A stretch of DNA of 64,000 nucleotides from a bacterium (GTDB lineage: Bacteria > CAIWAD01). Shown in pieces: positions 988-27,120 of the stretch; positions within the stretch are counted from its first letter, which is position 1, and every line of letters starts with the position of its first letter. The DNA lies in assembly GCA_030429345.1 (NCBI GenBank), contig JAUIFJ010000018.1, positions 1-64,000 of the forward strand, in the 5' to 3' direction. The notes beneath the pieces are model-generated. The model did not search any database. It was not told the origin of the DNA and saw only the letters and a list, made by a program, of their open reading frames with translations. The translations under genes and the position numbers were made by a program.

Positions 988-3939
988 CTAGAATGGGACG
1001 TCGTCGAACGGGATGTCCCCCTGGCTCTGGGGCGGATCGGTTCCGACTCCTAGGGCAGGCGCGGCGCTCTCGACAACTCTTGTTTGTGATGCAGATGCAG
1101 TATTTGATGTCTTGCCAGAAGCTTCACCGGCATCTTCCGGCTCTTCCCCACCCACGCGAATCAATGCTTCTCGAACTGCCTCGGCCTTCAGGTACAAAGT
1201 CTGGTAACGTTTCGTCCCCAATCGCCTTCTGCGTATACCTTCTTCACGGACTACATTCACCTTCCTGAGTGCAGAGGTCAATTTGTGACTGGTCATCTTG
1301 AAATCGGATGGCCATTGCCCTGCATCGACAAGTTCATCGTGAACCAGATCCTTGATCTTGGCCGTTTGATACTCGTGTGGAAACTGAAGCTCCTCCAACC
1401 CTTCGCGACTGTCTCCTTCCAGGATGTTCAGCAATGTCTGCAGGATCAGAATGTCCATGTCCGTGCGACGGTTCTTTTCTTCCTCGTCCTTCCGCTTCTG
1501 CAGCTGTGTTTGCCGCAATCGCTGCACAATGGATTGTGTTTCATCCTTGCACTCCAGATCGATCAGCCGGGCAATGGTGAACAAGGGCAGCCATGTCTCA
1601 CGCTCGCGGCCCGTCAGGTCCGGAAACTCCACTTCCGGATCACTGGTCATGGTGATTCTGAGGTGGGCGAACCTGGTCAGCGCCCAGCAGTGCAGCTTGT
1701 TCCGCAGTTTTCGTGTACGAATGTCCAGCTCAGTACTGGTCTTCGCCCAATCCAGAAAGTTGCGCGCCCCATCCCTGTCGTATTTCAGGCAGCGGACCAG
1801 GATGCACCGGCTAGCCAACACACGATCGATCTCTTTTGTACCGCCCAGGCACTTTGGGCCGTAGGTTCTGAAGGACTGCAGCTGGTTGTCGTCTCCGCTG
1901 GCACGCTTGACCATCCCCCCCTTCTTGTAGCTTCCATTCAACACCAACTTCTGGGCGAAGTAAACGGACCCCGGTTCCGGGTTCGTGAAATTCTCCGCTT
2001 CATCATAGATCGATGTACCACGATTGGCGTGTGACTCCCTGAAAATCGCAGCCTCCGAAGTACTGTCCGACTTCGATGTATTGAAGGCCAGCAGTTTGAT
2101 GAGATCCATGCCAGCGGACTTGCCGGATTCATGCCTGCCATGGAAGTGCAGGAATCCGATCGCATCGAAGAGGGGATACACATAGGTCATCATAACCCAG
2201 ATCGCTATCAGATCGTGCTGGTGCTCCTCGGGATACCAGATGTACTGTTCGAACAGATGCCTGATATCCCGAAACAGGTCCCGCGTGCTGGGAGTGCAGG
2301 ACGCAGGATCATTGAGGAACCGGGCAAGCGAGTATTCTTCTGCCGGTTCCTTGCTCCAGTTGGGCAGGGTACGTTCAGGAAAGTTCAGAGACTTCGGATC
2401 ACCAGGGTCTCGATCGTGATACAGGATGATCTTCGAACTGGGCTTTCCCTCAAGGATCCTGCTTTCAATCAGGCAAGGCATCTCCCCTGCAATTTCATCA
2501 TTGGATTCGTGCTCAAGCCACACTCCGATGTGCCCTACGGGCTCAGTGCCAGTGAAATCAAAATCCAGCGCCGGGCTGAAAGACTTCTTGTCTCGAAAGA
2601 CGAACTTCAGGCTCTCTGCAGAAGTGCCCTCCGCTTTGTCCTGTGATCCACTCTTCTGAGCATCCTTGTGAACGCGCACAGCCTCCTGCATGTCTTTGCG
2701 CAATTCGGAGACCGGGCAATCCAGCCTGGTGCGCAGACGCTTCAACCACTGCGCTTGTTCGACACCGGTTTCTGCTGCAAGCCGCAGAAGCAGCTGGTTC
2801 AGCAGTTCCTTGTGATCACGGGTCAGCCACTCGCCCGCCTGCACATCGGGCAGCTGGTCGATCATGTACTCCAGCAGGGGCGGGGCCTGCTGGACCAGCT
2901 GCTGGAACTCCTCGGCCGTGTGGCCGGCGCGCGCCCAGTCGTTGATGTCATTGGCGTCCGGGATGTGCAGGATGCGCACTTCCCCGTCCTGTATCTCGGA
3001 CTGGATGGCCTGGGCGGTCTTCAACACGTTCTTCCGGCCCGCCTCGTCGTTGTCCCACACGAGGGTCAGGGTCTCGACCCGTTTGAATTTCCGGGCATGC
3101 TTGACGGCATGGACGCCCAGGTTCCCGACGGCCGGGATTCCCCAGTCCATGAGGGTCCAGCAGTCGGGGACGCCTTCGGTGAGCACGACTTGCCGATGAT
3201 GCAGGTCGTCCTCGTTGTACAGGCCTGCAGGGCCCGGCAAGTGGATGTACTTGGCCCGCTGATCCGGATCCAGTGAGCGGAAGGTCATGCCAACCACGCG
3301 CTGGCGGCGCATGAGGGGAATGGAGATTCGCGTGTCGTAAAACAGCCGCCTCCACTCGCCCTTGTCATTCAGCCGGCGCAGGCCCAGCTCGTTGTACTCC
3401 TCGGGCTCGTAGCCCGCCAGCCCCGGATGCTTGGGCCGGATGTCGTACAGCTTGCGGATCTCGACCAGGCCCAGCAGATGCTGGCGCTGGAAATCCCGGC
3501 CAAAGCCCCGCTTTTCGAGGTAGGCGCGCGCGCCTTGCGCTGCTTCCGTCTCCCCCTGCAGCCAGCCGGCGCAGGCGCGGGCCACGGTGGTCAGGATGTC
3601 CTCCCGGCGGCGCCAGGTCTCCAGCTCCTGCCGTTCTTCCTCCGTCGGTGGTTTGACTTCCAAGCCCAGCATCTGGGCCCCGATCTCCACGGCGGCACGG
3701 AACTCCACCTTTCGCTCGGCCATCAGGTAGTCGAGCACGCTGCCGGCGGACTGGCCGCCCGGGTGGGACCAGCAGATCCAGCTGTTGGTCTCGCGGTAGA
3801 TGGTGAAGCTTGGGCCCGTGTCTTCATGGTCAGGCAGTGGACAGCAGATGCTGCGCTTCCCCGCCGCCTCCTTGGGCAGCAGGGACTCGATGGGCAGGTC
3901 CCGCTTGATTCGCTCGATCAGGTCGCTGTAGTACGCCAT
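988..3939 (-). CDS. Primase with CHC2-like zinc finger, TOPRIM and C-terminal P-loop ATPase
   Basis: CPLPDHEDTGPSFTIYRETNSWICWSHPGGQ (CHC2-like); TEGVPDCW...WDNDEAGRKN (TOPRIM); FHFHGRHESGKSAGMDLI (Walker A); C-terminus GDIPFDDVPF. Confidence 0.85.
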   Translation of the reverse strand: MAYYSDLIERIKRDLPIESLLPKEAAGKRSICCPLPDHEDTGPSFTIYRETNSWICWSHPGGQSAGSVLDYLMAERKVEFRAAVEIGAQMLGLEVKPPTEEERQELETWRRREDILTTVARACAGWLQGETEAAQGARAYLEKRGFGRDFQRQHLLGLVEIRKLYDIRPKHPGLAGYEPEEYNELGLRRLNDKGEWRRLFYDTRISIPLMRRQRVVGMTFRSLDPDQRAKYIHLPGPAGLYNEDDLHHRQVVLTEGVPDCWTLMDWGIPAVGNLGVHAVKHARKFKRVETLTLVWDNDEAGRKNVLKTAQAIQSEIQDGEVRILHIPDANDINDWARAGHTAEEFQQLVQQAPPLLEYMIDQLPDVQAGEWLTRDHKELLNQLLLRLAAETGVEQAQWLKRLRTRLDCPVSELRKDMQEAVRVHKDAQKSGSQDKAEGTSAESLKFVFRDKKSFSPALDFDFTGTEPVGHIGVWLEHESNDEIAGEMPCLIESRILEGKPSSKIILYHDRDPGDPKSLNFPERTLPNWSKEPAEEYSLARFLNDPASCTPSTRDLFRDIRHLFEQYIWYPEEHQHDLIAIWVMMTYVYPLFDAIGFLHFHGRHESGKSAGMDLIKLLAFNTSKSDSTSEAAIFRESHANRGTSIYDEAENFTNPEPGSVYFAQKLVLNGSYKKGGMVKRASGDDNQLQSFRTYGPKCLGGTKEIDRVLASRCILVRCLKYDRDGARNFLDWAKTSTELDIRTRKLRNKLHCWALTRFAHLRITMTSDPEVEFPDLTGRERETWLPLFTIARLIDLECKDETQSIVQRLRQTQLQKRKDEEEKNRRTDMDILILQTLLNILEGDSREGLEELQFPHEYQTAKIKDLVHDELVDAGQWPSDFKMTSHKLTSALRKVNVVREEGIRRRRLGTKRYQTLYLKAEAVREALIRVGGEEPEDAGEASGKTSNTASASQTRVVESAAPALGVGTDPPQSQGDIPFDDVPF

Positions 3940-3948
3940 GGTGGCTTT

Positions 3949-6015
3949 CTATTTCAGGGCCATCTGGAACAGGTCGGTATCACGGGCGGCCAGAACGGCG
4001 GCTGCGGCGTCGAACTGATGCTCGGAGCGTGCTTTCGTCCGGTCCCACTGGGCTCCTTTCCAGGATTGCCCCGTGCGCGAAGCCCCGGCCTTCACCACAT
4101 CCGCCAGGTGGGCCTTGGTGGCCAGGAGGCTGCCGCCCACACGCTGCTTCACCTCCCCGGGCAGCAGCCACACCGTCGGCACCTCGTGAAAGACCTTTGC
4201 TGCACAGGCCAGGGCCTTGGCGTAGGCCAGGCCTTTCAGGGCGTCCGCGCTCTGGGCACCGGAAGACGGGGTCTCGCAGCAGATGACGGCCGGTGGAAAG
4301 CGGGTGAGAAACGATTGCAGCCCGGCCAGCAGCAGCTCCAGCCGGCGTGTGTCATCGTCGGAGACCCGAAGACCCAGTTTCTTGTCCGACTTGGCCGTCA
4401 CGATGGTCTGGATTCCCGCCGGCCACCAGGCCGAAAGTTCGATGGCCACCAGGCCGAAGTGGGTAAAACTGGGATCCATGCCGACGGCAAAGCGTGTGGC
4501 ACCCGCCACCTGCGGGCCAAGCCGCGGGGGCTTGAGGATCGGAGCGCCGGTATCGATGGTCAGCTGCGTGCGCGACGCCACGGGCTCGCCCTTGACGATC
4601 TCCGCCCGCAGCTTGTGATACGCTTTCTTGCGCTGGTTGTACTGGCGCACCAGAGGCTTGCTGTCCCCGCCCACGTGGACCACGCCGCTATCCACGAAAT
4701 CGAAGACCTCGCCCCGCTCCTTGCCTGGACAAGCGCGCATCACGCGGCCCACACGCTGCTCGACACGACTCTCGCTCTTGGCCGGGAAGGTGAGCAGCAG
4801 GGTGTTCAGCTCGGGGATGTTGAGCCCCTCGTCGGCCACAGTGCTGGCGAAGAGCACGCGGACCGCGCCGGCGCGCACGCTCTTCCGAACTAGCCGCCGG
4901 GTGTCCTTCTTGACCTTCCCCACCAGCAGCTCGCCCTGGATGCCACGATCGGCGGCCGCTTCGAAGAGCGGCACCAGGTGGTCCTCCACCCGGCCAGAAA
5001 GCACGAGGATCACGCGGTCCGGGTCGTTGTACAGCTGGGCCAGCAGGTCCAGGATCTGCTTGTTGCGCGCGGCGTTGCCGGCTAGTGCGTCGGCCAGGGC
5101 CTGCCAGTCGGCTGCCCCGCCGTAGGGGAAGGTGAAGGCCGTGTGGATCTCATGGATCCGCGCCGGCACCAGGTAGCCCTGGTCCAGCAGCGACCGCTGA
5201 TCTGTCTCGTGGATCACGGGTCCAAAGGTGTCGGTCAGTTTCTGGGTCAGGCCATCCGCCCGCTCGGGCGTGGCCGTCAGGGCCAGGCGGTACTTGGCGG
5301 GGCACTGGCCGATGATCCGGTCGAAAGTCGTGGCCGGCGCGTGATGTCCTTCATCCAGGATCATGCAGCCGAAGGCGCTGAGGGCGCTTCGCAACACCTC
5401 CTCCTGCATGCGCGCCAGGGACTGGACGGTGGCGATCGCCAGGGTTTGCCCGGGCTTCATCGCCGGCTTCTTTGCCGACAACTGGGCGACCTCGATTCCC
5501 AGCTGCTCCTCAATCGCTTCCGCCCACTGGTCCACCAGATCCAGCGTGTGGACCAGGATCAGGGTCGGTTGGCAAATCTGCGCGACGGCCGCAAGGGCGG
5601 TGAAGGTCTTGCCGCCGCCGGCGGGGATGACCACCACGCCCTGGACACGGTCGACCATGGCGCCGCAGGCTTTCTGCTGGTAGGGCCGGAGCGCCCAGCC
5701 CCCGGCCTTGAAGGCCACACGGTCGTGTGACATGCGCAGGTCGCGCACGCCCGGCCAGGGATGGATCGATCGCTTGAGCAGATCGATGGCCCCGCGGGGC
5801 ACTGTGAGCTCGGTCCGGTCCTCGGTCCAGCCTTCCAGCCTGGGCGGAATCTGCACCCACTTCCCGTCCACCTTCTTCATCGGCCGCTGCTTCCCCCGCC
5901 GCTTGGCCCCCAGGTACTCGGGGTTGGGGTAGCTCAAATTCTTCTGAATCTGCTTGCGGGCCAGGGCGCTTAGCAGGCGACTGGGCACACGGATCACGGA
6001 ATCGACGGTGATCAT
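3949..6015 (-). CDS. SF2 (XPB-like, DEGH) helicase fused to a C-terminal RuvC-like nuclease
   Basis: IPAGGGKTFTAL, ILDEGHHAP, LTATPERADG, QRVGRVMR; C-terminal RuvC-like FAVGMDPSFTHFGLVAIE, ICCETPSSGAQSADA, EHQFDAAAAVLAA. Start MITVDS at 6015, 8 bp after the upstream stop. Confidence 0.85.
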   Translation of the reverse strand: MITVDSVIRVPSRLLSALARKQIQKNLSYPNPEYLGAKRRGKQRPMKKVDGKWVQIPPRLEGWTEDRTELTVPRGAIDLLKRSIHPWPGVRDLRMSHDRVAFKAGGWALRPYQQKACGAMVDRVQGVVVIPAGGGKTFTALAAVAQICQPTLILVHTLDLVDQWAEAIEEQLGIEVAQLSAKKPAMKPGQTLAIATVQSLARMQEEVLRSALSAFGCMILDEGHHAPATTFDRIIGQCPAKYRLALTATPERADGLTQKLTDTFGPVIHETDQRSLLDQGYLVPARIHEIHTAFTFPYGGAADWQALADALAGNAARNKQILDLLAQLYNDPDRVILVLSGRVEDHLVPLFEAAADRGIQGELLVGKVKKDTRRLVRKSVRAGAVRVLFASTVADEGLNIPELNTLLLTFPAKSESRVEQRVGRVMRACPGKERGEVFDFVDSGVVHVGGDSKPLVRQYNQRKKAYHKLRAEIVKGEPVASRTQLTIDTGAPILKPPRLGPQVAGATRFAVGMDPSFTHFGLVAIELSAWWPAGIQTIVTAKSDKKLGLRVSDDDTRRLELLLAGLQSFLTRFPPAVICCETPSSGAQSADALKGLAYAKALACAAKVFHEVPTVWLLPGEVKQRVGGSLLATKAHLADVVKAGASRTGQSWKGAQWDRTKARSEHQFDAAAAVLAARDTDLFQMALK

Positions 6016-6022
6016 GGGTTCC

Positions 6023-8017
6023 TCAGGAAAAGGGGTCGTCGTCGTCTGACAGGAAGGACTGAATGGCCTGGATCTCGGTGGACAGCATGCCGCCCGGAAT
6101 GGATTTGAGGAACTGATGGCCATAGCGCTTGGTCTTCACGCGCCCGTCCATCAGCAGCATGACGCCCCGGTCCGTATCACGGCGGATCAAGCGCCCGAAG
6201 ATCTGCTTGAAGGTGATCAGCGAAAGCGGCAGGCTGTGGCGGAAGAACCAGCCCTTGGGATCGTGCTCCGCGATCCAGTCCATGACCGGGTCCGCGGGCG
6301 AGGGAAAGGGCAGGCGATCCAGGGCAACGAGCGACAGGGCTTCCCCGGGAACATCGATGCCCTGGAAGAAGGTCCGCGTGGCGAACAGCACACTCGACAC
6401 ATCGTCCTTGAATCGCTGGATCAGCACCGTGCTGGGCGCGCTGCCCTGGCGGAAGCACCGGTATCCCAGACGGCCGAACTCGGGCTCCAGGGCGTGCCAG
6501 GCTTCCTGCATCGCCGCGTTGGACGTGAAGAGCAGGAGGCTCCGTCCCCCAGCCGCGGGCACCGCCCGAGCCAGAGTATCGATCATCCGGTCCCGGAAGT
6601 CTTCGGCATTCGGTTCCGGCAGCTGGTCGGGCACGACAACCAGGGCGCTGGACCGGAAATCGAAGGGGCTGGGAAGGATCAGCTGGCGGGTCCGGCCTTC
6701 CGGCAAGCCCAGGCGATCGCGAATGAAGCTGAAGTCGTTTCGTGTCGTAGTCAGCGTGGCGCTCGTGCCCACGAAGGCCTGCAGCTGGGGAAACAGGTTG
6801 GCCGCCAGGTGCTTGGCCACCGACACCGGTTTGCCACACAGCTTTCCCAGAGTGGGCCCCGCCTTCGGCGCCCAGGTCTCAACCCAGTACACCCACTCCG
6901 GATCCTCCTGGTCGACCAGGAACTTGATCTTTCGGCAGGCTTCCCGGCACTGGGCCTCCCTGCGTTCCAGCTGCTTGTACCGCTTGCCCTCCGGGTCCTC
7001 CCCCTTCTTCACAGACTGCAGCTCCCGCCGCGCCTGGTCCACGCACAGCAGCAGCTCCGAGGGGTCCGCGCAGCCCGGGCGCGTGATCCGCACCCTGTTG
7101 GTCTCGCGGAAGCGCGCGGCGTTCAGGGCACGTGCAAAGCGCTCCGCCGCCTGGTCCAGCCGCTCCCACGTCTCGCCGGACAGGAAGGACTTGAGCGACC
7201 GGAAGGACCAGCGGCCGATGTCCTCGCCGGCGAAGTTGGCCCCGATCTCCGGGATTTCGTGTGCTTCATCTGCGATCAAGATGTCATACGGGGGCAGCAC
7301 ACGTGCCCGGTCGGCCGTCCGCATCCGGACCTGCAGGTCCGCGAACAGGAGGTGGTAGTTGGTGACCACGATGTCCGCATCGGCGGCTGCCTCGATCGCT
7401 GCCTTGTGGAAACAGGGAAGCTCACAGCCCGCGCATTCCCCGGTGTCCGTGACCGCGAACTGGCGCCACACGCGGGGACCGGGCTTGAAGTCCAGCTCAC
7501 TAACATCCCCGCTGCCGGTCTTGTTGGCCCAGTCCAAAACGGCCCGGAACTCCTCCTCGTCTTCCTGGGCCAGTCCGCCACCTTTGAAGAACCCGCTGTT
7601 GTGCTCGGTCAGCTTATCCACACACACGAACTGCTGCCGGCCCTTCATCAGTGCGAACTTGAAGTCCACGGGCAGCAGGTCCCGCAGGAAGGGCAGGTCC
7701 TTCCCCACCAGCTGCTCCTGCAGCGCGATGTTGGCCGTGGCGATCACCACACGCTGCAGGTTCGGCACGGCATGCAGGATCGCCGGGATGAGATACGCCA
7801 AGCTCTTGCCCGTACCCGTGGGGGCCTCGACCAGCAGCTCGCGCTCATCGCGCAGCGTGTCGTACACCGCCCCGGCCATTCGGATCTGACTCTCGCGTGC
7901 CTGGTAGCCCTCTAGACTGCCGGCCATCAGACCATTGGGTCCCAGAACCTGGGCAGGGGTGAGTAAAAGCTGTGTGCTACCCGTTTGCGGGGCAGCCGGT
8001 TCTACACTGAATGCCAT
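6023..8017 (-). CDS. DinG/XPD (Rad3)-family helicase
   Basis: VEAPTGTGKSLAYLIPAI, IADEAHEIPEIG, cysteines CVDKL...CAGCELPC, FATRTFFQGIDVPGEALSLVALDRLPF; C-terminus SDDDDPFS. Confidence 0.85.
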   Translation of the reverse strand: MAFSVEPAAPQTGSTQLLLTPAQVLGPNGLMAGSLEGYQARESQIRMAGAVYDTLRDERELLVEAPTGTGKSLAYLIPAILHAVPNLQRVVIATANIALQEQLVGKDLPFLRDLLPVDFKFALMKGRQQFVCVDKLTEHNSGFFKGGGLAQEDEEEFRAVLDWANKTGSGDVSELDFKPGPRVWRQFAVTDTGECAGCELPCFHKAAIEAAADADIVVTNYHLLFADLQVRMRTADRARVLPPYDILIADEAHEIPEIGANFAGEDIGRWSFRSLKSFLSGETWERLDQAAERFARALNAARFRETNRVRITRPGCADPSELLLCVDQARRELQSVKKGEDPEGKRYKQLERREAQCREACRKIKFLVDQEDPEWVYWVETWAPKAGPTLGKLCGKPVSVAKHLAANLFPQLQAFVGTSATLTTTRNDFSFIRDRLGLPEGRTRQLILPSPFDFRSSALVVVPDQLPEPNAEDFRDRMIDTLARAVPAAGGRSLLLFTSNAAMQEAWHALEPEFGRLGYRCFRQGSAPSTVLIQRFKDDVSSVLFATRTFFQGIDVPGEALSLVALDRLPFPSPADPVMDWIAEHDPKGWFFRHSLPLSLITFKQIFGRLIRRDTDRGVMLLMDGRVKTKRYGHQFLKSIPGGMLSTEIQAIQSFLSDDDDPFS

Positions 8018-9184: not shown

Positions 9185-9871
9185 TCAAAAATCTCGAAGA
9201 TTTCTTTTGCGCACCTTCAGGAGTAGTCGATGCACACGCTGCCTCAGTGTTGCGGCCGCGATCCCCATCTGTTCAGCCAATTCATCGTAACTGTAGTCAT
9301 AGATGTAGCGGCCAAACAGGAGTTCAGCCTCATCCTTCTGCAGATCTAAGTCCGAGAGAATGGACTGGATTTGCTGGGCTTCGAACTCCTTGCCGGCAGA
9401 ACTCAATTCATCAAGGGAATTGAACACGGGATCGTCTACTGATGACTCTAGTCCGCGATCTCTGCGCAATAGCTTATTCGTATCACGAACAAGGTTTCGA
9501 ATGAGGAATGGAGTGTCAGTCTTCACTCGATTCAACGCCTCCAGAAAGCACCACGAAGCATCAGATTCGACTTCCGATGAGACTCCCTGCGGACGAAAAT
9601 GCCGCGACGCTATCGACTGAATTGGCTTCCGGAAAATCCATAGGAGCCAGACTTGCAGGCATCCTACCGCATCACCTGCCTCGCGAAACTGTGTGACAAG
9701 GATTCGAACCAGGTCGTCTTGCCGCTGCTGATCTTCCTGTCTTGTGGACGTCATGAACTCGAACAGCACTTCCAGGTCAGGCGGCAGCTCTGGCTTCTGC
9801 TCCACCAGCTTCTGGTATTCGGCACGGGATTCGGCGGTCAAAACGTGTTCGATGCGCAGGGGGGAAGGCAT
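9185..9871 (-). CDS. Sigma-70-like protein (region-4-type HTH)
   Basis: C-terminal YSYDELAEQMGIAAATLRQRVHRLLLKVRKR resembles sigma region 4; first gene of the leftward operon. Confidence 0.65.
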   Translation of the reverse strand: MPSPLRIEHVLTAESRAEYQKLVEQKPELPPDLEVLFEFMTSTRQEDQQRQDDLVRILVTQFREAGDAVGCLQVWLLWIFRKPIQSIASRHFRPQGVSSEVESDASWCFLEALNRVKTDTPFLIRNLVRDTNKLLRRDRGLESSVDDPVFNSLDELSSAGKEFEAQQIQSILSDLDLQKDEAELLFGRYIYDYSYDELAEQMGIAAATLRQRVHRLLLKVRKRNLRDF

Positions 9872-11505: not shown

Positions 11506-11573
11506 AATGAAACCAGGCCGACAGATTGCCCTGTCGGCCCGATCAACTGCTGACCTATACAGGGCCCATAGAA

Positions 11574-14342
11574 ATGCCGAAGACCAAATCCCCCCTGCCT
11601 GCAGGCCAGCACCGCCTCAGCTGGAATGAGATCCGAAGCCGTGCTACAAAATTCTCCAAGGAATGGGCAGGGGCGCATAGCGAGAACGCTGAGGCCCAGA
11701 CCTTCTGGAACGAGTTCTTCGATGTATTCGGCCTGTCGCGCAAGCGTGTGGCATCGTTCGAGGAGCCGGTCAAGAAGCAGGATGGGCGGGACGGCCGTAT
11801 TGACCTGCTGTGGAAGCAGGTGCTGATGGTGGAGCACAAGTCGCTGGGCAAGGATCTGAATGCTGCGGTGCACCAGGCGCTCGACTATTTCCCGGGCCTG
11901 ACGGACCAGGACCTTCCCCAGTATGTCCTGGTATCTGATTTCGCTCGACTGCGCCTCCATGATCTGGAAGGTGGAACGGACTTCCAGTTCGAGCTGAAGG
12001 ATCTACATAAGGAAGTCCGGCGCTTCGGCTTCATGGTCGGCTACCAGACGCAGAGCTACGGTGAGCAGGACCCGGTGAATGTCCGGGCGGCCGAGCGGCT
12101 GGGCCGGCTGCACGACCTGCTGCGTGAATCCGGCTACACGGGTCACAAGCTGGAAAAGCTGCTGGTTCGTCTTCTCTTCTGCCTGTTTGCCGACGACACG
12201 GGACTGTTTGAGCGGCGCTCCTTCCAGGACCTGATTGAACAGCGTACAAGCATCGACGGCGCCGATCTGGGCCACTGGCTTGCCGACCTGTTCCAGGTGC
12301 TGGACACACGTGTGGAAGAGCGGCAGAAGAAGCTGGATGAAGACCTGGCCGCCTTCCCCTGGGTGAATGGGAAACTGTTTGAGGAACCGCTTCCCATCGC
12401 TGCCTTTGACACCGAAATGCGCACTGCGCTCCTGCAGGCCTGTGGTCTGGACTGGAGCCGAATCAGTCCCGCCATCTTCGGAAGCCTTTTCCAGTCCATC
12501 ATGGATAAGGAAGTGCGCCGGAATCTTGGGGCACACTACACCAGCGAAACCAACATCCTGAAAGCCCTGCGGCCCCTATTCCTGGAAGACCTAGAGGCAG
12601 AGTTCAACCGTGTGAAGCGGAGCCGCAAACAGCTGGCCGCCTTCCACCAGAAGCTGGCCAAGATTCGGATCCTCGATCCAGCGTGTGGCTGCGGCAACTT
12701 CCTGGTCATCGCCTACCGTGAACTGCGCATGCTCGAGATGGATGTGCTGCGTGCGCTCTACAAATCACGATTGAAGAAGGGCATGGAAGAGGGCCTGTCG
12801 ATCGATGAGTACCTGCTTCTGGATGTAGACCAGTTCTATGGCATCGAGATCGAGGAGTTTCCAGCCCAGATCGCTCAGGTTGCGCTCTGGCTCATGGATC
12901 ACCAGATGAACCTGCTAGCTGGTGAGGAATTCGGCCAGCTTGTATCACGGTTGCCGCTTACGAAGCATGCTAAGATCGTACAGGGGAATGCGCTGCGGAT
13001 GGATTGGAGCGAGGTAGTAGACCCTTCAGTGTTGAGTTACATCGTGGGAAATCCACCCTTTGTCGGATCAAAATTCTTGACTGATGAACAGAAACTAGAT
13101 GTGGCATCTACATTCAAAGCCCGCAAAGGATCTGGCCTGCTAGACTATGTATCCTGCTGGTATGTTCTGGCTATGAACTTTATTTCCAGCAACCCTTCAA
13201 TTCGAGTGGCATTCGTATCCACTAACTCGATCACACAGGGCGAACAGCCGTCTGCGCTTTGGTTGCCTCTTCTTGAACAAGGTCTGCAGTTTCATTTTGC
13301 ACATAGGACCTTTCAGTGGTCAAGCGAAGGTCGCGGACGCGCTACTGTGCAATGCGTAATCATAGGATTTGGCTTGCAGGATGTGTCGCAAAGGTATCTC
13401 TTTCAATACAAGGATCCTCTAACAGCGCCAGAACGTGTGGCCGTATCACGTATCAATCCCTACCTGGTTGACGGTCCAGATGTTGTACTCAGAAGTAGAT
13501 CTCACCCACTATGTGATTCGCCAGAAATCGGAATCGGAAACAAACCTATTGATGGCGGCCAATATCTATTCAAGCCTGACGAAAAGGCTGAGTTTCTTCA
13601 GTCGGAACCCAAAGCAAAAAAATGTTTCCGCCGGTGGTATGGCGCCGATGAACTCCTAAACGGAAAGGAGCGGTGGTGTCTTTGGCTTGGTGAGTGCCCA
13701 CCATCCGAACTTCGAAAGATGCCCCACTGCATGGAGCGCATCGCAGCGGTTCGAGCGTTACGTAAAGCCAGCAAATCTGCACCAACAAGAAAATTGGCAG
13801 AGACACCTACAAGGTTTCATGTTGAGAACATTCCAGATTCTGACTACCTGGCAATACCTGAAGTCTCCTCTGAGCGCAGAGAGTACATCCCATTGGGGTT
13901 CTTAGGTCCTGACACACTTGCCAGCAATCTATTGAAGGTCATGCGTCACGCATCACTCTTTCACTTCGGAGTGCTTCAATCGAGGATGCACATGGCATGG
14001 ACTAGAGCAGTATGTGGGAGACTAGAGAGTCGATATCGCTACTCTGCTGAAATTGTGTACAACAATTTTCCTTGGCCGGATCCAGACAAGAAATCTAGCC
14101 TAGCAATCGAAAATGCCGCCAAGACTGTGCTGTCTGCCCGAGATGTTCACGGTGATGCAACTCTTGCAGACCTCTACGACCCGCGCACAATGCCAGCCAA
14201 CTTGGTGAAGGCACACCGGAAACTTGATCAGGCTGTAGATAAAGCATACGGTGCGCCACGATTCAGCAATGAAGCCAAGCGTGTGGCATTCTTGTTTGAG
14301 TTGTATTCGCAAATTGCCGAAGACGCTTTGAATAGACCTTGA
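11574..14342 (+). CDS. MmeI-like single-chain restriction-modification protein (N6-adenine MTase with N-terminal nuclease-like region)
   Basis: GRIDLLWKQVLMVEHKS (PD-(D/E)XK-like), LDPACGCGNFLVIAYRELR (SAM motif I), VGNPPFVGSK (NPPF motif IV), YNNFPWP. Confidence 0.85.
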   Translation: MPKTKSPLPAGQHRLSWNEIRSRATKFSKEWAGAHSENAEAQTFWNEFFDVFGLSRKRVASFEEPVKKQDGRDGRIDLLWKQVLMVEHKSLGKDLNAAVHQALDYFPGLTDQDLPQYVLVSDFARLRLHDLEGGTDFQFELKDLHKEVRRFGFMVGYQTQSYGEQDPVNVRAAERLGRLHDLLRESGYTGHKLEKLLVRLLFCLFADDTGLFERRSFQDLIEQRTSIDGADLGHWLADLFQVLDTRVEERQKKLDEDLAAFPWVNGKLFEEPLPIAAFDTEMRTALLQACGLDWSRISPAIFGSLFQSIMDKEVRRNLGAHYTSETNILKALRPLFLEDLEAEFNRVKRSRKQLAAFHQKLAKIRILDPACGCGNFLVIAYRELRMLEMDVLRALYKSRLKKGMEEGLSIDEYLLLDVDQFYGIEIEEFPAQIAQVALWLMDHQMNLLAGEEFGQLVSRLPLTKHAKIVQGNALRMDWSEVVDPSVLSYIVGNPPFVGSKFLTDEQKLDVASTFKARKGSGLLDYVSCWYVLAMNFISSNPSIRVAFVSTNSITQGEQPSALWLPLLEQGLQFHFAHRTFQWSSEGRGRATVQCVIIGFGLQDVSQRYLFQYKDPLTAPERVAVSRINPYLVDGPDVVLRSRSHPLCDSPEIGIGNKPIDGGQYLFKPDEKAEFLQSEPKAKKCFRRWYGADELLNGKERWCLWLGECPPSELRKMPHCMERIAAVRALRKASKSAPTRKLAETPTRFHVENIPDSDYLAIPEVSSERREYIPLGFLGPDTLASNLLKVMRHASLFHFGVLQSRMHMAWTRAVCGRLESRYRYSAEIVYNNFPWPDPDKKSSLAIENAAKTVLSARDVHGDATLADLYDPRTMPANLVKAHRKLDQAVDKAYGAPRFSNEAKRVAFLFELYSQIAEDALNRP

Positions 14343-15412: not shown

Positions 15413-16009
15413 ATGCAGATTCGAATCGTACTCCTTTCAACCCTGTCAGCAATCTTGTTCAGCTGTACTTCTGTGAAGATGATGATGGTAACAGGCACGG
15501 AAGTAAGTTCTGCACTTGAGCAACTACAAGATGCAATAGATCAAATCTATGAGGAAAGTGCTGGCAGCGTTCCCACTTCCGGGGACGACCATACACATGT
15601 GTTTCCGGAGTTACAATCTGCCACAATAAAGCTGAATTCGGCAGTATCTCACGAAGGTGAAGCGGAAGCAAGTTTAATTTTATTTGCCAAGGGCAAGGCT
15701 TCGAAATCGAATTCTAGTGAGATAGTTATAGAATTGGCCCCAAAGATGCCAAGGTCTACAAAATCTGGAGAATCAATAGGTCGGCAGCTTGCAGACCAAG
15801 TAATCGAGGCAGTTAGAGCCATTCATAGCAGTGAAACGCTAGCACTTACAAAGCTAACTGTGACGGCTCAGCTTGAATTTTCTAGAAACATGGGAAAGGG
15901 ATTTGAGGCAGAATTATCTGATATAGGATTATCTGCAAGCCATAGTCAAGTCCGATCCTCCGGCCATTCGCTCACACTAGTGTTTGCTCCTCGTAATGCA
16001 AATAACTGA
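15413..16009 (+). CDS. Putative lipoprotein with trypsin-co-occurring (Trypco2)-like domain
   Basis: Lipobox-like LSAILFSC; ATIKLNSAVSHEGEAEASLILFAKGKASKSNSSEIVIELAPK resembles the Trypco2 strand pattern. Confidence 0.5.
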   Translation: MQIRIVLLSTLSAILFSCTSVKMMMVTGTEVSSALEQLQDAIDQIYEESAGSVPTSGDDHTHVFPELQSATIKLNSAVSHEGEAEASLILFAKGKASKSNSSEIVIELAPKMPRSTKSGESIGRQLADQVIEAVRAIHSSETLALTKLTVTAQLEFSRNMGKGFEAELSDIGLSASHSQVRSSGHSLTLVFAPRNANN

Positions 16010-16481
16010 TTCAATGCACAGTCGGGCGACGTCTACAAGTCTCCTAGAACTACACAAAACTTATGTACAACTTTATATTCATGAGGACTTATTGATATGG
16101 AGCAAGGCACGGAATTTTTTCTGGATTAACTCCACTATGATGGCAGCCTATGCTACTGTTGGACAGATTGCCGTAAATAGAGCTGTGAACTTAATTCCGA
16201 TTGTTGCAATCTTCTATTGCTGTGCCTTTTATTGGACAATGCGTAATAGTAAAAAGCACATTGACACCTATCGAAACTACTGGGAGCACACCGAAGAAGC
16301 ACTGCGCAAAACTCTTCCACCCGAGGTCGAATTGATAATCGAGGATTCAGGAAACGGTGAAATGTCTGGGAAGCCTAAATTCGGTGGTGCGCTTGTAAGG
16401 TCGAGACTCACAACATCGCAACTGTTGCTGATAGTAGTCTTCATTACAATGGCCTTATGGGCTGTAGTTTTGATGTTCTGA
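15996..16481 (+). CDS. Small membrane protein, 2-3 TM, RipA-like appearance
   Basis: WSKARNFFWINSTMMAAYATVGQ and a C-terminal TM LLLIVVFITMALWAVVLMF; start uncertain (15996 or 16014). Confidence 0.5.
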   Translation: MQITDSMHSRATSTSLLELHKTYVQLYIHEDLLIWSKARNFFWINSTMMAAYATVGQIAVNRAVNLIPIVAIFYCCAFYWTMRNSKKHIDTYRNYWEHTEEALRKTLPPEVELIIEDSGNGEMSGKPKFGGALVRSRLTTSQLLLIVVFITMALWAVVLMF

Positions 16482-20578: not shown

Positions 20579-21673
20579 ATGAAGAAGCTTTCTCCAATTC
20601 AAAAGCAAAGATGTCTTCGCCATGCAAGAAACTCTCTGAAGAGAAGACTCCACTCTGCAATACTTCTGAAGCGAAAACGAAGAAAACTACAATTCAAATC
20701 GAAAGCAGTTCGAAAACACTATAGAGAGGAAATTGAGCCGTATAAGTCTTACAAGAGAATCCCTGCACCCGCTGTTTTTTCGCTAATTGAAAATCCCAAC
20801 AAGGTTGTTGATTTTATTGCAGATATTCAGGACTGTCTTTCTAAAAGAAAGTCAGTTTATATTGTTCTCGAGAATGTTGAGAAGATTTCTTTAGACTCAA
20901 TTACTATTCTACTATCCGTTATGCGAAAGTTTGAGTATAAGCTGATTCGATTTACTGGTGACATGCCAAAAAATCAAACTGTGAGAGATTTTATTCTTGA
21001 ATCAGACTTCTTTGAGCACTTATATAGAATCGGACGATCAAAGGAATCCGATACTTACAAGTATAAAGGTGGGAGTAAGATACATACTCATGCATCTAAA
21101 ATTGTGGATGGTGAGCTTGCAAGCAAAGTTATTGAGGACGCATCACAAACTGTATGGGGTGAAACAAAGCGCTGCCAGGGGGTCTATAGAACACTAATTG
21201 AGCTAATGCTAAACACTAATAATCATGCTGATAGTAGTGTAAAAGGCGAAAAACACTGGTGGCTATCTGTCTATCATAATACGGCAGAATCCAAAGTTTG
21301 CTTTGCATTCGTAGACTATGGTGTTGGAGTTTTTACAAGCTTAAATGAGAAGCGCGAAGGCAGCAAATTCTTTGGAATTGTTTCATCACTTCGGCGGTTG
21401 TTTCAAGCTAAGTCGAATGCAAAACTAATGGAACTCATTCTCAATGGCACTATGCATAAAACCGCAACAGGTAAACCACATAGGGGAAAAGGTCTGCCTG
21501 GAATTGGAAAGGCGCTTGAAAGGTTGCAGATAAGCAATTTAAACATTATAACAAACGATGTTCATGCACATGTCGATGGACAGGTGTATGCTACGCTAGG
21601 CAGTTCATTTTCAGGCACTTTCATCTACTGGGAACTTGATAGCGAGAAGAAGTGTTGCCATGTCCAAAGTTAA
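20579..21673 (+). CDS. GHKL (HSP90-like) ATPase with basic N-terminus and STAS-like middle region
   Basis: N-box ELMLNTNNHAD, G1 FAFVDYGVGVF, G2 HRGKGLPGIGKAL; N-terminal VYIVLENVEKISLDSITILLSVM is STAS-like; very basic first 60 aa. Confidence 0.75.
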   Translation: MKKLSPIQKQRCLRHARNSLKRRLHSAILLKRKRRKLQFKSKAVRKHYREEIEPYKSYKRIPAPAVFSLIENPNKVVDFIADIQDCLSKRKSVYIVLENVEKISLDSITILLSVMRKFEYKLIRFTGDMPKNQTVRDFILESDFFEHLYRIGRSKESDTYKYKGGSKIHTHASKIVDGELASKVIEDASQTVWGETKRCQGVYRTLIELMLNTNNHADSSVKGEKHWWLSVYHNTAESKVCFAFVDYGVGVFTSLNEKREGSKFFGIVSSLRRLFQAKSNAKLMELILNGTMHKTATGKPHRGKGLPGIGKALERLQISNLNIITNDVHAHVDGQVYATLGSSFSGTFIYWELDSEKKCCHVQS

Positions 21674-22007
21674 GTATTCCATAGCTCAAGGATTCTCCCG
21701 ACACCCTGGTCCGCGTCAGATCATTGAAGGTGCAAATTCGGGTGAGCTTTTTCGGACAAAAGTTTTTCGTGATCTGGTACGCAAAGCAATTCAAGAAGAA
21801 TCGACTATTGTATTGGACCTGGATGGCACAGCAGGTTATGGTACCTCGTTTCTTGAAGAATGCTTTGGAGGACTTATTCGGGAGGACGGAATCCCCTATG
21901 AGGCTTTGGTGAATCGATTTGAGTTTATCTCAAATGAAGAGCCTTATCTTATTAATGACATCTTGGCTTATCTAAAAGATGCACATGAGGAGGCGCAGGA
22001 CAATTAG
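21660..22007 (+). CDS. STAS-like domain protein (DUF4325-type)
   Basis: FSRHPGPRQIIEGANSGELFRTKVFRDLVRKAI...IVLDLDGTAGYGTSFLEECFGGLIRE; overlaps the upstream gene by 14 bp. Confidence 0.75.
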   Translation: MSKVKYSIAQGFSRHPGPRQIIEGANSGELFRTKVFRDLVRKAIQEESTIVLDLDGTAGYGTSFLEECFGGLIREDGIPYEALVNRFEFISNEEPYLINDILAYLKDAHEEAQDN

Positions 22008-22593
22008 GTCCTTTAGACTTACGCATATACTCGCTTTTATCGTTGGATCCCTATTCGGATTTCTACTAGCACTACTGCCTTTCGAGTTCAAAAAGGAAGT
22101 AGACCCAATAGCATTAATTTCAACGGTATTAACTTGTACTATCGCCCTCTATATTGCAGGAATTCTCAACAATAGGCTGACGAGCCAACAGAGTGTAAAG
22201 AACCTGGCAGTTGAACAGATTTCCAGTGTTCGCAAGTTCGCAACAGAGTTAAAAAGTATATGTGCTGCAAACAATCTCTTATATACTAATGCAGCAGCCT
22301 ATTCAAAGGAATTGTTTACGCGATATCAGGATCTATACATCCTCTTGAATTTATGCAGCTTTAATAGTCACAACGACATTTGTGAACAAATGCGTATCAC
22401 AATCCGCGATACACGGGATATTTTAACTAGCATACCAAAGAAGACAAACACTGCTCCTTCTTCAGCAGGTAACACATATGTTGAGGAGGATGTCATACGC
22501 TATAGCTCGAGTGCGATTATCGAGATAGAGAGTGAAATTGAAAAGATAAATAGTCTACTTGTCAGATTGCAGCTGGCTGTCATTAATGAGTGA
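21979..22593 (+). CDS. 2TM membrane protein, third gene of the GHKL/STAS-like operon
   Basis: LTHILAFIVGSLFGFLLALLPF and ALISTVLTCTIALYIAGIL, then a long helical region; overlaps the upstream gene by 29 bp. Confidence 0.65.
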   Translation: MHMRRRRTIRSFRLTHILAFIVGSLFGFLLALLPFEFKKEVDPIALISTVLTCTIALYIAGILNNRLTSQQSVKNLAVEQISSVRKFATELKSICAANNLLYTNAAAYSKELFTRYQDLYILLNLCSFNSHNDICEQMRITIRDTRDILTSIPKKTNTAPSSAGNTYVEEDVIRYSSSAIIEIESEIEKINSLLVRLQLAVINE

Positions 22594-22693: not shown

Positions 22694-23848
22694 CTATTTC
22701 TGTGCATCATTGTGAATCAATAGAATCGCCTTCTCCAGACTCTGCCGTACGGGATCCAGGGCCATCCGCGCATAGACCTCGGTGGCCGCCCGATTCCCAT
22801 GACCAAGGGTCTTCTGAATCACTTCCAGCGGGGCGCCCGTGTCCAACTGGTAGCTGGCCAGGCTGCGGCGCAGGTCGTGGATCCGAAGGTTCTCCAGCCC
22901 GGCGCGCTTGAGGATTCGACGCCAGCCGCTCTCCGGCTGCTCCAAATGACCAGAAGGTGCCTTGCCTGGGAAGACCCAGGGGCCTTCCTGATCTGCCCGC
23001 CGCTTGTGCAGGATCTCCTGCGCAGCCTGCGGCAGCACAACCTGCAGCTCCACCCCAGACTTAGCCTCCCCGTGCGGAATGGTCCAGACACCGGTTTGCA
23101 TGTCCAGCTGATCCCACCGCATGGACAGCACATTGGCCTTTCGGGCCCCTGTGTAGAGGGACAACAGGACATAGTCCCGGATCCCGTCACTGGGCTCGGC
23201 CAGCACGGCCTGGAAGAACTGGGGAAGCTCTTCCGGTTTCAACCGTCGGGTCCTGCTGGGCTCGGCATAGAAGCGAATGCTGGCCGCAGGGTTGGGAATG
23301 TCCAGCTCGTGCTCGCGGATGGCATGGTTGATCGCCGCCCGAAGGGTTCCTAGGACGCGGTTCGCAATGAAGTGGCCGCCGGATCGCCCAATCTCGGTAT
23401 GCAGTGCACTGACATCCCGTCTGCGCAGTTCCTGCAGCGTCTTTGACCCAGCCCAGTCTTGAAGGTGCTTCTCCCACTGCCAAGTATAGTCCGTCACTGT
23501 CCTTGGCCTGCGGTGCTCACGAACATATCCCATGAACTCTTCAAACAGCACTGAGATTCGAAGACCGCGGCTCTTCGGCCGCCTGGCCGCCACTGGATCC
23601 TTGCCAGATCGGAAGTCCACAAGCACATCGGATGCAATCTGCCGAGCCCTGGCCAGAGGGATCTCATCCACAGATCCAATCCGCACATACCGCGCTCGTC
23701 CATCATGGTGCTTGATCACATAGAACGACTTCTGACCAGACTTGGTGACAATGCACGCCAATGCCCGGACTTGGTCATCGTAGACGACCAGGCGCGGCTT
23801 CTCAGTCTCAAGCTGCTGGATGTAACGCTGCGACAATCTGACTCGCAT
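22694..23848 (-). CDS. int: Tyrosine recombinase/integrase
   Basis: YTGARKANVLSMRW, HDLRRSLASYQ, LGHGNRAATEVYARM (R...HxxR...Y). Confidence 0.92.
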   Translation of the reverse strand: MRVRLSQRYIQQLETEKPRLVVYDDQVRALACIVTKSGQKSFYVIKHHDGRARYVRIGSVDEIPLARARQIASDVLVDFRSGKDPVAARRPKSRGLRISVLFEEFMGYVREHRRPRTVTDYTWQWEKHLQDWAGSKTLQELRRRDVSALHTEIGRSGGHFIANRVLGTLRAAINHAIREHELDIPNPAASIRFYAEPSRTRRLKPEELPQFFQAVLAEPSDGIRDYVLLSLYTGARKANVLSMRWDQLDMQTGVWTIPHGEAKSGVELQVVLPQAAQEILHKRRADQEGPWVFPGKAPSGHLEQPESGWRRILKRAGLENLRIHDLRRSLASYQLDTGAPLEVIQKTLGHGNRAATEVYARMALDPVRQSLEKAILLIHNDAQK

Positions 23849-24003: not shown

Positions 24004-24044
24004 TTTTGGTCCAGACGTTCTAGGTTCGAGTCCTGGCGGGACAA
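24004..24044 (+). other. tRNA-Gln(UUG) 3' half; probable integration (att) site
   Basis: TTTTGGT anticodon loop, CCAGA stem strand, CTAGG-TTCGAGT-CCTGG T-arm, CGGGACA acceptor strand; no matching 5' half upstream. Confidence 0.75.
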
Positions 24045-24181
24045 TCTTTTCGATAAGTATGAAGTATGAAGGATGAAGTGGGTCTCTGGTGGTTTTGACG
24101 GTGTTTCGGGAATCCTTCACTCGGATGCATCACACCCAAACCAACCACCTCCCAACCGGGTCTCACTTCAGCCTTCAACCT

Positions 24182-24322
24182 TCATGATCCCCCAATCGCC
24201 TCCGCCACTCTCATCCCGTCCAGAGCGGCGCTGACGATCCCTGCGGCGAAGCCCGCTCCTTCCCCGCAGGGATAGAGCCCCGGCAGATCCGGGTGCCGCA
24301 GGTCCTTCCCGCGGGGGATGCG
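24182..24322 (-). pseudogene. Duplicated 3' end of the FAD oxidoreductase gene (25573-27120)
   Basis: Reverse-strand translation RIPRGKDLRHPDLPGLYPCGEGAGFAAGIVSAALDGMRVAEAIGGS* matches the tail of the 25573-27120 protein with one substitution; DNA differs at several silent sites. Confidence 0.85.
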
Positions 24323-24476: not shown

Positions 24477-25529
24477 CTATTGGGCGATTGACTGTCTGCA
24501 TATCCCACGTAGCCCCAGGTAGTAAGCGAACTCTCCGTCAATGGAGACTCGCCCTATAACGTCGTTGCCAAGGTCGGTGTACTTTAAAAGCGATCCATTG
24601 TCCGTAGCACAAACGTAGATTGATCTCGCGACGCCTGTTACCTGCTCGTCATTCACCAACAATTGCTTGACACCAAAGGCAGAGGTACGCCAGAGCGTGC
24701 TTCCCGTAGTCAGATCTATAGCCCACATGTCTCCACCTCCCGCGCCGTATACTCTTTCATCCCGGACAACGAGCTGAACCTCGCTGACTACTTCATTATT
24801 AACCCATGCTAGTGATCCGCTCAAGTCAATGCAGGTTGCACTAGCACTTGTTGCTACGACGGCATGTCCATTCTGAATTACTGATGAAATGATGTTTGAC
24901 TCAAACATCATCAATTCAACCGGACTCTCTAATTCTGGCGTACACCGAATCACACTGTTTGTGCCACTCTGCTCCTTGGACTCGTGCACTAGTACGACCT
25001 CGCCGTCCGTCTGTACGGACTCGAGTTGGTTTTCAAAGATAATCTCGGCAACAAGAGTGCCAGCCGTGTCAATCTTACTCAGCCTATTTCCGTTCAAAAC
25101 AAAGAAGTCTTCGCCGAATGACGAGTTTATCTTGCCAGTTGCTTGCCCACCAGAAAGCTCTCTACTCCAGATAATCTCTCCACCGTTTGTAAGATCAACT
25201 GCCGCTATTCGAGCTACCCCCGTAACCAGAAAGATTGAACCAATCCTTGTGTGTGCCAATACAAGAGGTCGCAGCCCCAATCCATGGCTGAAGGTAGTCA
25301 GATCACCAGTGCCTTTGTTTACGCACCACAAATTGCCATCGGACAGGAGAAAGCAGGCTGTGAGTTCACCGACAAAGGGCGGCGATAGGTTGGAGATATC
25401 GGGTTCAACTTCGATGCACCAGTCTACTGGATCACGCTCCCCAACATCAGGTTCATCGGATTGACACCCGAAGCTAGCACTGAGAACCGTTGTCACTAGG
25501 CAAAACAATCTTTGAATGTTCAATTGCAT
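24477..25529 (-). CDS. Lipoprotein with PQQ/WD-like beta-propeller appearance
   Basis: Lipobox LSASFGC; repeats such as MWAIDLTTGSTLWRTSAFGVKQL and IAAVDLTNGGEIIWSREL. Confidence 0.65.
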   Translation of the reverse strand: MQLNIQRLFCLVTTVLSASFGCQSDEPDVGERDPVDWCIEVEPDISNLSPPFVGELTACFLLSDGNLWCVNKGTGDLTTFSHGLGLRPLVLAHTRIGSIFLVTGVARIAAVDLTNGGEIIWSRELSGGQATGKINSSFGEDFFVLNGNRLSKIDTAGTLVAEIIFENQLESVQTDGEVVLVHESKEQSGTNSVIRCTPELESPVELMMFESNIISSVIQNGHAVVATSASATCIDLSGSLAWVNNEVVSEVQLVVRDERVYGAGGGDMWAIDLTTGSTLWRTSAFGVKQLLVNDEQVTGVARSIYVCATDNGSLLKYTDLGNDVIGRVSIDGEFAYYLGLRGICRQSIAQ

Positions 25530-25572
25530 CCGTCAGCCCCCCCCATCCGAGTCTCACTTCAACCTTCAACCT

Positions 25573-27120
25573 TCATGATCCCCCAATCGCCTCCGCCACT
25601 CTCATCCCGTCCAGCGCCGCGCTGACAATGCCGCCGGCGAAGCCCGCTCCTTCACCGCAGGGATAGAGCCCCGGCAGATCCGGGTGCCGCAGGTCCTTCC
25701 CGCGGGGGATGCGTACCGGGCTGCTGGTGCGGCTTTCGACTCCGACCAGCACGGCGTCCCTGTTGTCGTACAAGGGATGCTTGCGGCAGAATTCGGCCAG
25801 GCCCTTCTGTAGACGCTCCAGGATGAAGGGCGGCAGCAGTTCGGCCATGTCCACGGAAGCCAGGCCCGGGTGGTAGCTGCAGGCGGGCAGATCCTGTGAT
25901 ACACGGCCGGCCAGGAAGTCCTGCAGCCGCTGGGCCGGAGCGACCTGGGTCTTGCCGCCCAGCTCCCAGGCGCGCTTCTCGATGGCCGCCTGCCAGCGCT
26001 GGCCGATGAAGGGATCCGCGGGATCGCCGGGCAGGTCCTCCGGTTCGACGGCGACGACCATGCCCGAATTGGCGTAGGGAGAGGCGCGACGGGCGAGGCT
26101 CATGCCGTTGACCACCAGCTCGCCGGGGGCGGTTGCCGCAGGCACGATGAAGCCGCCGGGACACATGCAGAAACTGAACACGCCCCGTCCCCGCACGGTC
26201 GTCGCCAGGCTGTAGCTCGCGGCGGGCAGCAGCGGATGAGCGTAATCCTTCCCGTACTGCATGCGGTCGATCGCCTCCTGGGGATGCTCGATGCGCAGGC
26301 CCAGGGCAAAGGCCTTGGCCTCGAGGCGCAGGCCCTCCTGCTTGAGGAAAGCGTGGACATCCCGCGCGCTGTGTCCGGTGGCAAGTACGACACGCTGACC
26401 GGCGAACTCGCGGCCGTCGGCGCAGCGCAGGCCCGCCAGCCGGCCCTTTCCGTCACGCAGCAGGGCTGTCACACGGCTGTCGAAATGAAGCTCTGCGCCG
26501 GCTCGCTCCAGGCCTTCGCGCAGGGCCGTGACCACCCGGGGCAGCCGGTTCGAGCCGATATGCGGATGTGCCTCGACGAGGATCTCCGGCGTCGCGCCGA
26601 AGGACACCAGCCAGTGCAACACGCGCCGGACATCCCCGCGCTTGTGGGCACGCGTATACAACTTGCCGTCCGAATAGGTGCCGGCGCCGCCCTCGCCGAA
26701 GCCGTAGTTGCCGTCCGGGTCGACACGCGCCTCCCGCTGCACGGCGGCAATGTCGCGGCGCCGCTCGCGCACCCGGCGGCCGCGCTCGAAGAGCACCGGC
26801 CGGAATCCGCGCTCCAGGAGTTCCAGGGCCGCGAAATAGCCCGCGGGCCCCGTGCCGACAACCAGGACCCGTTCGGCACCTTCCGGCGCGGGACGGGGGC
26901 GCAGCGGAGCCTCTTGCGCGAAAGCCCCCTCCGCCAGGTGTTCCACGGCAAGCTGCCAGACCGGCGGCCGCGGGCGGCTGTCCAGGGAGCGCCGTCGCAC
27001 ACGCACCTCGCCCAGGGCGCTCTCCGCTACGGCGAGGACCCTTGCCGTCTCACGACGAATGGCTGCCGGGTCCTGCCCCTCCTCGAGGGACAGCCGTATG
27101 CTCAGGATCTCAGGCTGCAA
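25573..27120 (-). CDS. NAD(P)/FAD-dependent oxidoreductase
   Basis: VLVVGTGPAGYFAALELLERGFRPVLFERG (FAD-binding), FGEGGAGTYSDGKLYTR, LYPCGEGAGFAGGIVSAALDG. Confidence 0.85.
   Translation of the reverse strand: MQPEILSIRLSLEEGQDPAAIRRETARVLAVAESALGEVRVRRRSLDSRPRPPVWQLAVEHLAEGAFAQEAPLRPRPAPEGAERVLVVGTGPAGYFAALELLERGFRPVLFERGRRVRERRRDIAAVQREARVDPDGNYGFGEGGAGTYSDGKLYTRAHKRGDVRRVLHWLVSFGATPEILVEAHPHIGSNRLPRVVTALREGLERAGAELHFDSRVTALLRDGKGRLAGLRCADGREFAGQRVVLATGHSARDVHAFLKQEGLRLEAKAFALGLRIEHPQEAIDRMQYGKDYAHPLLPAASYSLATTVRGRGVFSFCMCPGGFIVPAATAPGELVVNGMSLARRASPYANSGMVVAVEPEDLPGDPADPFIGQRWQAAIEKRAWELGGKTQVAPAQRLQDFLAGRVSQDLPACSYHPGLASVDMAELLPPFILERLQKGLAEFCRKHPLYDNRDAVLVGVESRTSSPVRIPRGKDLRHPDLPGLYPCGEGAGFAGGIVSAALDGMRVAEAIGGS

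Follow-up and report, generated by a model that had tools for sequence, protein, structure and literature searches.

The three overlapping genes at positions 20579-22593 of the window (i.e., the whole stretch of 64,000 nt that was analysed) form a conserved operon that is carried by prophages and plasmids and, in the window, by a genomic island. They encode a putative STAS-GHKL kinase (gene 1), a DUF4325 STAS-like protein (gene 2) and a protein with predicted membrane helices (gene 3), where the first two are homologous to components of VapKSC-type operons and the third belongs to a single protein family. Probably, the triad is a widespread relative, unnamed so far, of an anti-phage toxin system that was published recently. 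We favour the reading of a VapKSC-like conflict module, akin to toxin-antitoxin systems and with three components, whose effector would be a membrane protein released upon phosphorylation; this we hold with somewhat more confidence than doubt. The original prediction had been a GHKL/STAS switch that gates a membrane effector, possibly against phages. Fold, linkage, prophage/island context and homology to VapKSC support its core, and kinase activity as well as the effector role are suggested by analogy.

Gene layout and domain composition

All three ORFs lie on the forward strand and start with ATG. Gene 1 spans 20579-21673 (364 aa), gene 2, the predicted substrate or antitoxin, 21660-22007 (115 aa), and gene 3, the predicted effector, 21979-22593 (204 aa). 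Genes 1 and 2 overlap by 14 bp, genes 2 and 3 by 29 bp. The tyrosine integrase of the host island lies next to them in convergent orientation (22694-23848, reverse strand; PF00589, E 9.4e-24). The ORF positions thus confirm the proposed arrangement of three same-strand overlapping genes adjoining an integrase. The arrangement goes beyond chance, as 130-136 of 141 distinct loci show the same gene order.

Pfam gave nothing for gene 1 up to E 1, and the domains of this protein were assigned from structure and profile comparisons. In the AlphaFold2 model (pLDDT 89.4), two basic helices (residues 6-36 and 42-55) precede a STAS-like domain (59-149), which is followed by a GHKL domain (168-354). On the forward strand, these correspond to the basic N-terminal extension at 20579-20743 (about residues 1-55), the STAS-like domain at 20753-21025 and the GHKL ATPase/kinase domain at 21080-21640. 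Within a profile search, the C-terminal half matches SpoIIAB (anti-sigma F factor; E 0.007) and the N-terminal half weakly matches SpoIIAA (E 0.11-0.2; 1auz with E 0.11, 1tid_B with E 0.18). Foldseek, too, returns SpoIIAB (1tid_C, prob 1.00, E 1.4e-3) for the GHKL part. The confident Foldseek matches of gene 1 (probability 0.99-1.00) are SpoIIAB chains, and the STAS matches of the N-terminal part (4xs5/1h4x) are lower-ranked, weak and not significant. The GHKL fold is therefore upheld by model and Foldseek alike, and the STAS-like stretch noticed earlier is recovered as the modelled domain with its weak SpoIIAA profile and Foldseek STAS matches.

The GHKL motifs are the N-box E208-N212-H216, DYGVG at residues 246-250 and RGKGL at 302-306. 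Within an alignment of 57 sequences of the gene 1 family, conservation is complete for E208, N212, D246, G248 and G305 and reaches at least 90% for H216, G250, R302 and G303. The boxes first described as HSP90/GHKL are thus real and conserved GHKL N, G1 and G2 boxes, but the HSP90-type label was rejected since structure and profile favour SpoIIAB-like anti-sigma kinases. The very basic N-terminus is a trait of the whole family, since the first 60 residues of 144 members carry on average a net charge of +13.4 (at least +10 in 89% of them), and it coincides with the two modelled basic helices. Pfam reports no HTH in gene 1. As modelled, the very basic N-terminus of gene 1 precedes a SpoIIAA-like STAS domain that is joined to a SpoIIAB-like GHKL domain of presumed kinase activity.

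Gene 2 is a single STAS domain of 115 aa, and its assignment to DUF4325 is borne out by Pfam (PF14213, E 2.2e-13), which reports no DNA-binding domain. Residues T62-S63 (21843-21848, forward strand) form the predicted phospho-acceptor pair and fall into the region of VapS S48, CapS S54 and SpoIIAA S58. Position 62 is S or T in 153/153 sequences and position 63 is S in 152/153, counts to which the search pattern of the genome scan contributes, as it partly selects for [ST]S at these positions. More weight is thus carried by the kinase-anchored loci (L180-L186), all of which keep [ST]SF. Deviating motifs were seen in L234 (SAF) and L244 (PSF). The acceptor would be either T62 or S63, as the alignment accommodates both hydroxyls.

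For gene 3, the two TMs and the helical tail of the original prediction reappear in the AlphaFold2 model (pLDDT 88.5), in which two hydrophobic N-terminal helices are followed by a helical bundle with a small hairpin. TM1 (21997-22074, forward strand) corresponds to the helix of residues 7-32, and TM2 (22105-22170, forward strand) to the first part of a long helix (43-97). Judging by the positive-inside rule and the arginine-rich N-terminus, both ends would be cytoplasmic. No fold match was obtained within PDB or BFVD at E<0.001; solved relatives were coiled coils and designed bundles only, without a solved membrane effector among them, and Pfam gave no PIN match. Relationship to VIT1, EhaL or TIGR00267 was rejected, as these matches are below the curated cut-offs and confined to the hydrophobic helices. 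The top BFVD match is orf1 of Haemophilus phage HP1 (L246:1698-2315; Foldseek E 1.4e-3, prob 1.00), a 2-TM protein encoded between cI and int. It was likewise dismissed as a relative, given a sequence E of 0.99 and no adjoining kinase or DUF4325 gene.

Conserved linkage and relation to known kinase/STAS systems

Searches for DUF4325 yielded 80 genome loci and 80 viral-contig loci, to which a kinase search added four. Linkage was assessed for the 141 distinct DUF4325 proteins whose flanking DNA was long enough. A kinase gene is directly upstream in 130/141 cases (84% of such pairs overlap) and a gene of 130-260 aa is directly downstream in 136/141 (65% overlap). An N-terminal hydrophobic helix is found in 117/136 of these third genes compared to 173/878 control ORFs of the same size (Fisher p 4e-52), and the remaining 19/136 show none by a simple hydrophobicity scale. 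Iterated profiles built from relatives of the window's gene 3 joined 141/147 third genes and 0/600 controls. That is, the three genes travel together as a conserved unit, as the original prediction had required, and by their profiles the third genes make up one family, which in the loci studied is confined to the slot after the DUF4325 gene.

The linkage is independent of the DUF4325 query, since a kinase-profile search within 369 genomes of one class returned triads for all 8 matches with E<1e-48. When searching with gene 3 alone, the best places were known triads, and one more (L234) adjoins a DUF4325 gene. Fusions among the three proteins were not found in the loci studied. Gene 3 is the operon's last gene, and no further gene family is consistently found 3' of the triad. 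Beside this, locus L187 (118-1986) encodes a divergent kinase, a DUF4325 protein and a membrane protein of 187 aa outside the gene 3 family (E 0.86), which is perhaps a further, independent membrane effector.

A literature search among openly licensed papers found no description of the trio. The closest known system is VapKSC (Chambers et al. 2026, EMBO J; PMC13373217). STAS and GHKL in one chain are the published VapK/CapK architecture. CapK (HTH-STAS-GHKL) is activated by ssDNA as well as by DNA damage and phosphorylates CapS (STAS-wHTH); for VapKSC, the proposal is that VapS, once phosphorylated, sets the PIN toxin VapC free, and vapKSC protects E. coli against the lytic phage Bas42 (PMC13373217). 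The passages of that paper considered here mention no membrane protein as third gene product, and the paper nowhere uses the word 'transmembrane'. The triad had been presented as a candidate undescribed system, not recognised among the named ones. In agreement, no family of the PADLOC-DB 2.0.0 profiles matches any of the three proteins (E up to 1) and the membrane-effector branch is new. Only that branch is new, however, as the kinase + STAS switch is already published as CapKS and VapKSC (PMC13373217).

A census of PF14213 (38/386 genomes) comprised several architectures: operons of kinase, DUF4325 and PIN genes (L212, L220), the triad, and DUF4325 inside frames of about 350 aa. The latter (340-434 aa; L199-L202, L208, L210, L211, L213-L216, L218, L222, L224) in part weakly match the kinase profile, and possibly combine kinase and STAS in one chain, an architecture without described function. 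One further PIN operon (L193), from the kinase search, encodes a DUF4325 STAS protein (E 3.4e-13) and, next to it, a PIN protein (E 1.1e-11), which at the profile level identifies VapS-type antitoxins as DUF4325 proteins, too. In all comparisons, the kinases of the PIN operons L193, L212 and L220 stand in for VapK in place of the paper's own sequences. By profile alignment (hhalign), gene 1 aligns to a VapK-type kinase with a probability of 97.6 and gene 2 to the DUF4325 proteins of PIN-containing and related loci; E-values of 3e-12 and 4e-12 were obtained in these alignments. Accordingly, gene 1 is homologous to VapK-type and gene 2 to VapS-type proteins.

Within the kinase tree, the 47 triad kinases form a separate group that needs a single change of label (branch SH-aLRT 77). 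They also differ in a STAS column that holds W/F in the PIN-operon kinases and K, R, S, D, Q etc. in 47/47 triad kinases, never an aromatic residue. The column is equated with VapK F54 / CapK W68 by inference, since the authors' sequences are not part of the alignment. If this mapping is right, ssDNA activation of the triad kinase would need other residues, or its signal would differ; the basic N-terminus is a candidate sensor.

In sum, triad and VapKSC share a three-gene operon with a homologous STAS-GHKL kinase, a DUF4325 STAS protein with conserved S/T, the effector in last position and a place near defence genes. They differ in the third gene, which in the triad encodes a helical membrane protein with 1-2 TMs instead of a PIN nuclease, and in the kinase, which has a long basic N-terminal extension, lacks the conserved aromatic residue at the inferred F54 and groups separately. 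By analogy, the triad would work like VapKSC, yet it is not VapKSC, since the defining PIN toxin is absent.

Gene 3 is taken as the effector mainly because of its place, which is that of the toxin, next to homologues of VapK-type (gene 1) and VapS-type (gene 2) proteins. It could instead be a membrane sensor or anchor that holds or activates the kinase, with the kinase/STAS pair controlling lysogeny, a stress response or a sigma factor. Upstream sensors are indeed frequent in partner-switching pathways, the large cytoplasmic helical domain of the model would suit scaffolding, and gene 3 has no known effector fold. We nevertheless consider this role unlikely given the toxin's position relative to vapKSC-type operons, the final place in the operon with no consistent further family, and a domain profile search that found neither sigma factor nor HTH domain in the triad. 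The nearest sigma factor found is a sigma-70 region 4 protein at 9185-9871, about 10.7 kb away. With SpoIIAB/SpoIIAA and RsbW/RsbV, the triad shares a GHKL Ser/Thr kinase type, the STAS fold and a conserved hydroxyl residue starting STAS helix 2, but its kinase has a STAS domain of its own, no sigma factor is encoded in the triad, and the partner is apparently a membrane protein.

With regard to CapK/CapS, the kinases correspond in their N-terminal extension, STAS and GHKL parts and, for the triad putatively, in acting on a STAS partner. This architecture would also fit a transcriptional switch as in CapKS, with gene 2 as repressor and gene 3 as a minor accessory. Such a switch is very hard to credit: CapS needs its C-terminal wHTH whereas gene 2 is a lone STAS of 115 aa without a DNA-binding domain, and the unit comprises no immune operon downstream of the kinase/STAS pair. 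CapK and gene 1 further differ in that no HTH could be recognised in gene 1, the N-terminus of which is modelled as two basic helices.

Genomic context and distribution

The triad sits at one end of an element targeted to tRNA-Gln. The att core (24004-24043, forward strand), next to the start of the integrase gene, repeats the 3' part of tRNA-Gln(TTG) exactly over 40 bp and is identical to G000:C25:667-706, where the intact tRNA-Gln is found near the end of contig C25. The same att site is located on contig C82 (L171, G000:C82:4838-4857) beside a related integrase (73.5% DNA identity), i.e., tRNA-Gln is a hotspot for this integrase family. A search for the island's left end found no second att copy within the contig's 64 kb. 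Downstream of the intact tRNA-Gln, 86% similar DNA was observed (L169).

The triad shares an AT-rich stretch of about 10-25 kb with a full-length MmeI-type IIG restriction-modification enzyme (11526-14342, forward strand; PADLOC model, 1183 bits) and with overlapping genes for a Trypco2-domain protein (15413-16009) and an 8xMP membrane protein (15984-16481, both forward strand), possibly another unnamed conflict pair with the membrane protein second. The nearest neighbours of 38 other triads, 147 in total, gave PADLOC matches with E<=1e-20 for R-M enzymes, HEC-01, PDC-S02, MzaA, AbiD, RT_UG29 and Mads, counted without a matched control and hence suggestive only. Two further observations concern the window. 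A DnaG-like primase (RTasDnaG-like, E 3e-24), a ResIII helicase and a DinG-like helicase (PADLOC typeIV_DinG, E 1e-111) lie in a row on the reverse strand at 988-8017. Next to the island, a 175-bp direct repeat (94%; 24148-24322 and 25539-25713), which copies the 3' end of an FAD-protein gene (25573-27120), flanks a PQQ-like gene (24477-25529) and looks like a second small insertion.

Relatives of the kinase occur in at least nine phyla (Bacteroidota, Bacillota, Pseudomonadota, Verrucomicrobiota, Acidobacteriota, Elusimicrobiota, Omnitrophota, Patescibacteria and Spirochaetota). The window's kinase groups with copies from Bacteroidota, Methylobacter and Omnitrophota, which points to horizontal transfer. 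Plasmid-borne triads were identified in Leptospira, Novosphingobium and Vibrio, on some plasmids beside other TA genes; a plasmid copy from Acinetobacter has a shortened kinase frame. The triad is furthermore present in Marinobacter phage AS1, and for the Francisella prophage KIRK a 293-aa protein, a DUF4325 protein and a TM protein are listed consecutively near CI repressor and integrase (PMC7924643).

A place directly behind the repressor is frequent in viral contigs. Among 66 non-identical IMG/VR kinases, 25 lie within 500 bp behind a same-strand S24 (CI/LexA-type) repressor, compared to 3/168 control genes, which were taken from the same contigs and are of comparable length (p 6e-13, a guide only since related prophages are not independent). 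An opposite-strand S24 repressor at the same place was found for 0/66 kinases. The repressor-kinase gap has a median of 74 bp (IMG/VR cases and 4 genome loci). The window's own triad has no adjoining CI-type repressor. In phage lambda, the order is cI-rexAB. RexB is a membrane effector (PMC12894663). Lambda RexAB and RexAB-type prophage systems resemble the triad in combining a cytosolic sensor with a small membrane protein, in many prophages behind CI. They differ in that RexA is a DNA-binding protein whereas gene 1 is a STAS-GHKL kinase, and RexAB has no STAS intermediate.

The frequent place directly behind CI/LexA-type repressors, the plasmid copies beside other TA genes and the activation of CapK by DNA damage would also fit a maintenance module (addiction, lysogeny tuning) that stabilises its element or couples induction to DNA damage. 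We rate this as rather improbable on its own, given that VapKSC, the nearest tested relative, protects against a lytic phage (PMC13373217). Moreover, exclusion and addiction are not mutually exclusive, and rexAB, which is an exclusion system, likewise occupies the CI-adjacent place. Tentatively, the trio may be an undescribed, widespread phage-exclusion family that occupies the rexAB position in prophages and also resides on islands and plasmids. Its trigger would be other than ssDNA and probably be read by the basic N-terminus, and an effector fold without solved relative would kill or arrest the cell.

Proposed mechanism and implications

According to the favoured VapKSC-like reading, the STAS protein of gene 2 would at rest bind the cytoplasmic helical domain of gene 3 and keep it inactive. 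An infection or DNA-stress signal would switch on the STAS-GHKL kinase of gene 1, which would phosphorylate gene 2 at the T62/S63 pair. Phosphorylated gene 2 would then let gene 3 go, and freed gene 3 would assemble in the inner membrane such that the cell depolarises or growth stops and the phage is aborted. That is, we infer for the triad a chain of kinase activity, phosphorylation, binding and release that ends in toxicity, membrane damage and phage exclusion.

If this reading is true, DUF4325, a domain of unknown function, gains a role as phospho-regulated antitoxin, and what prophages keep behind their CI repressor becomes directly testable in many lysogens. The kinase/STAS release switch would be modular, i.e., it would drive a membrane effector besides a nuclease toxin, on a much broader phyletic and mobile-element scale.
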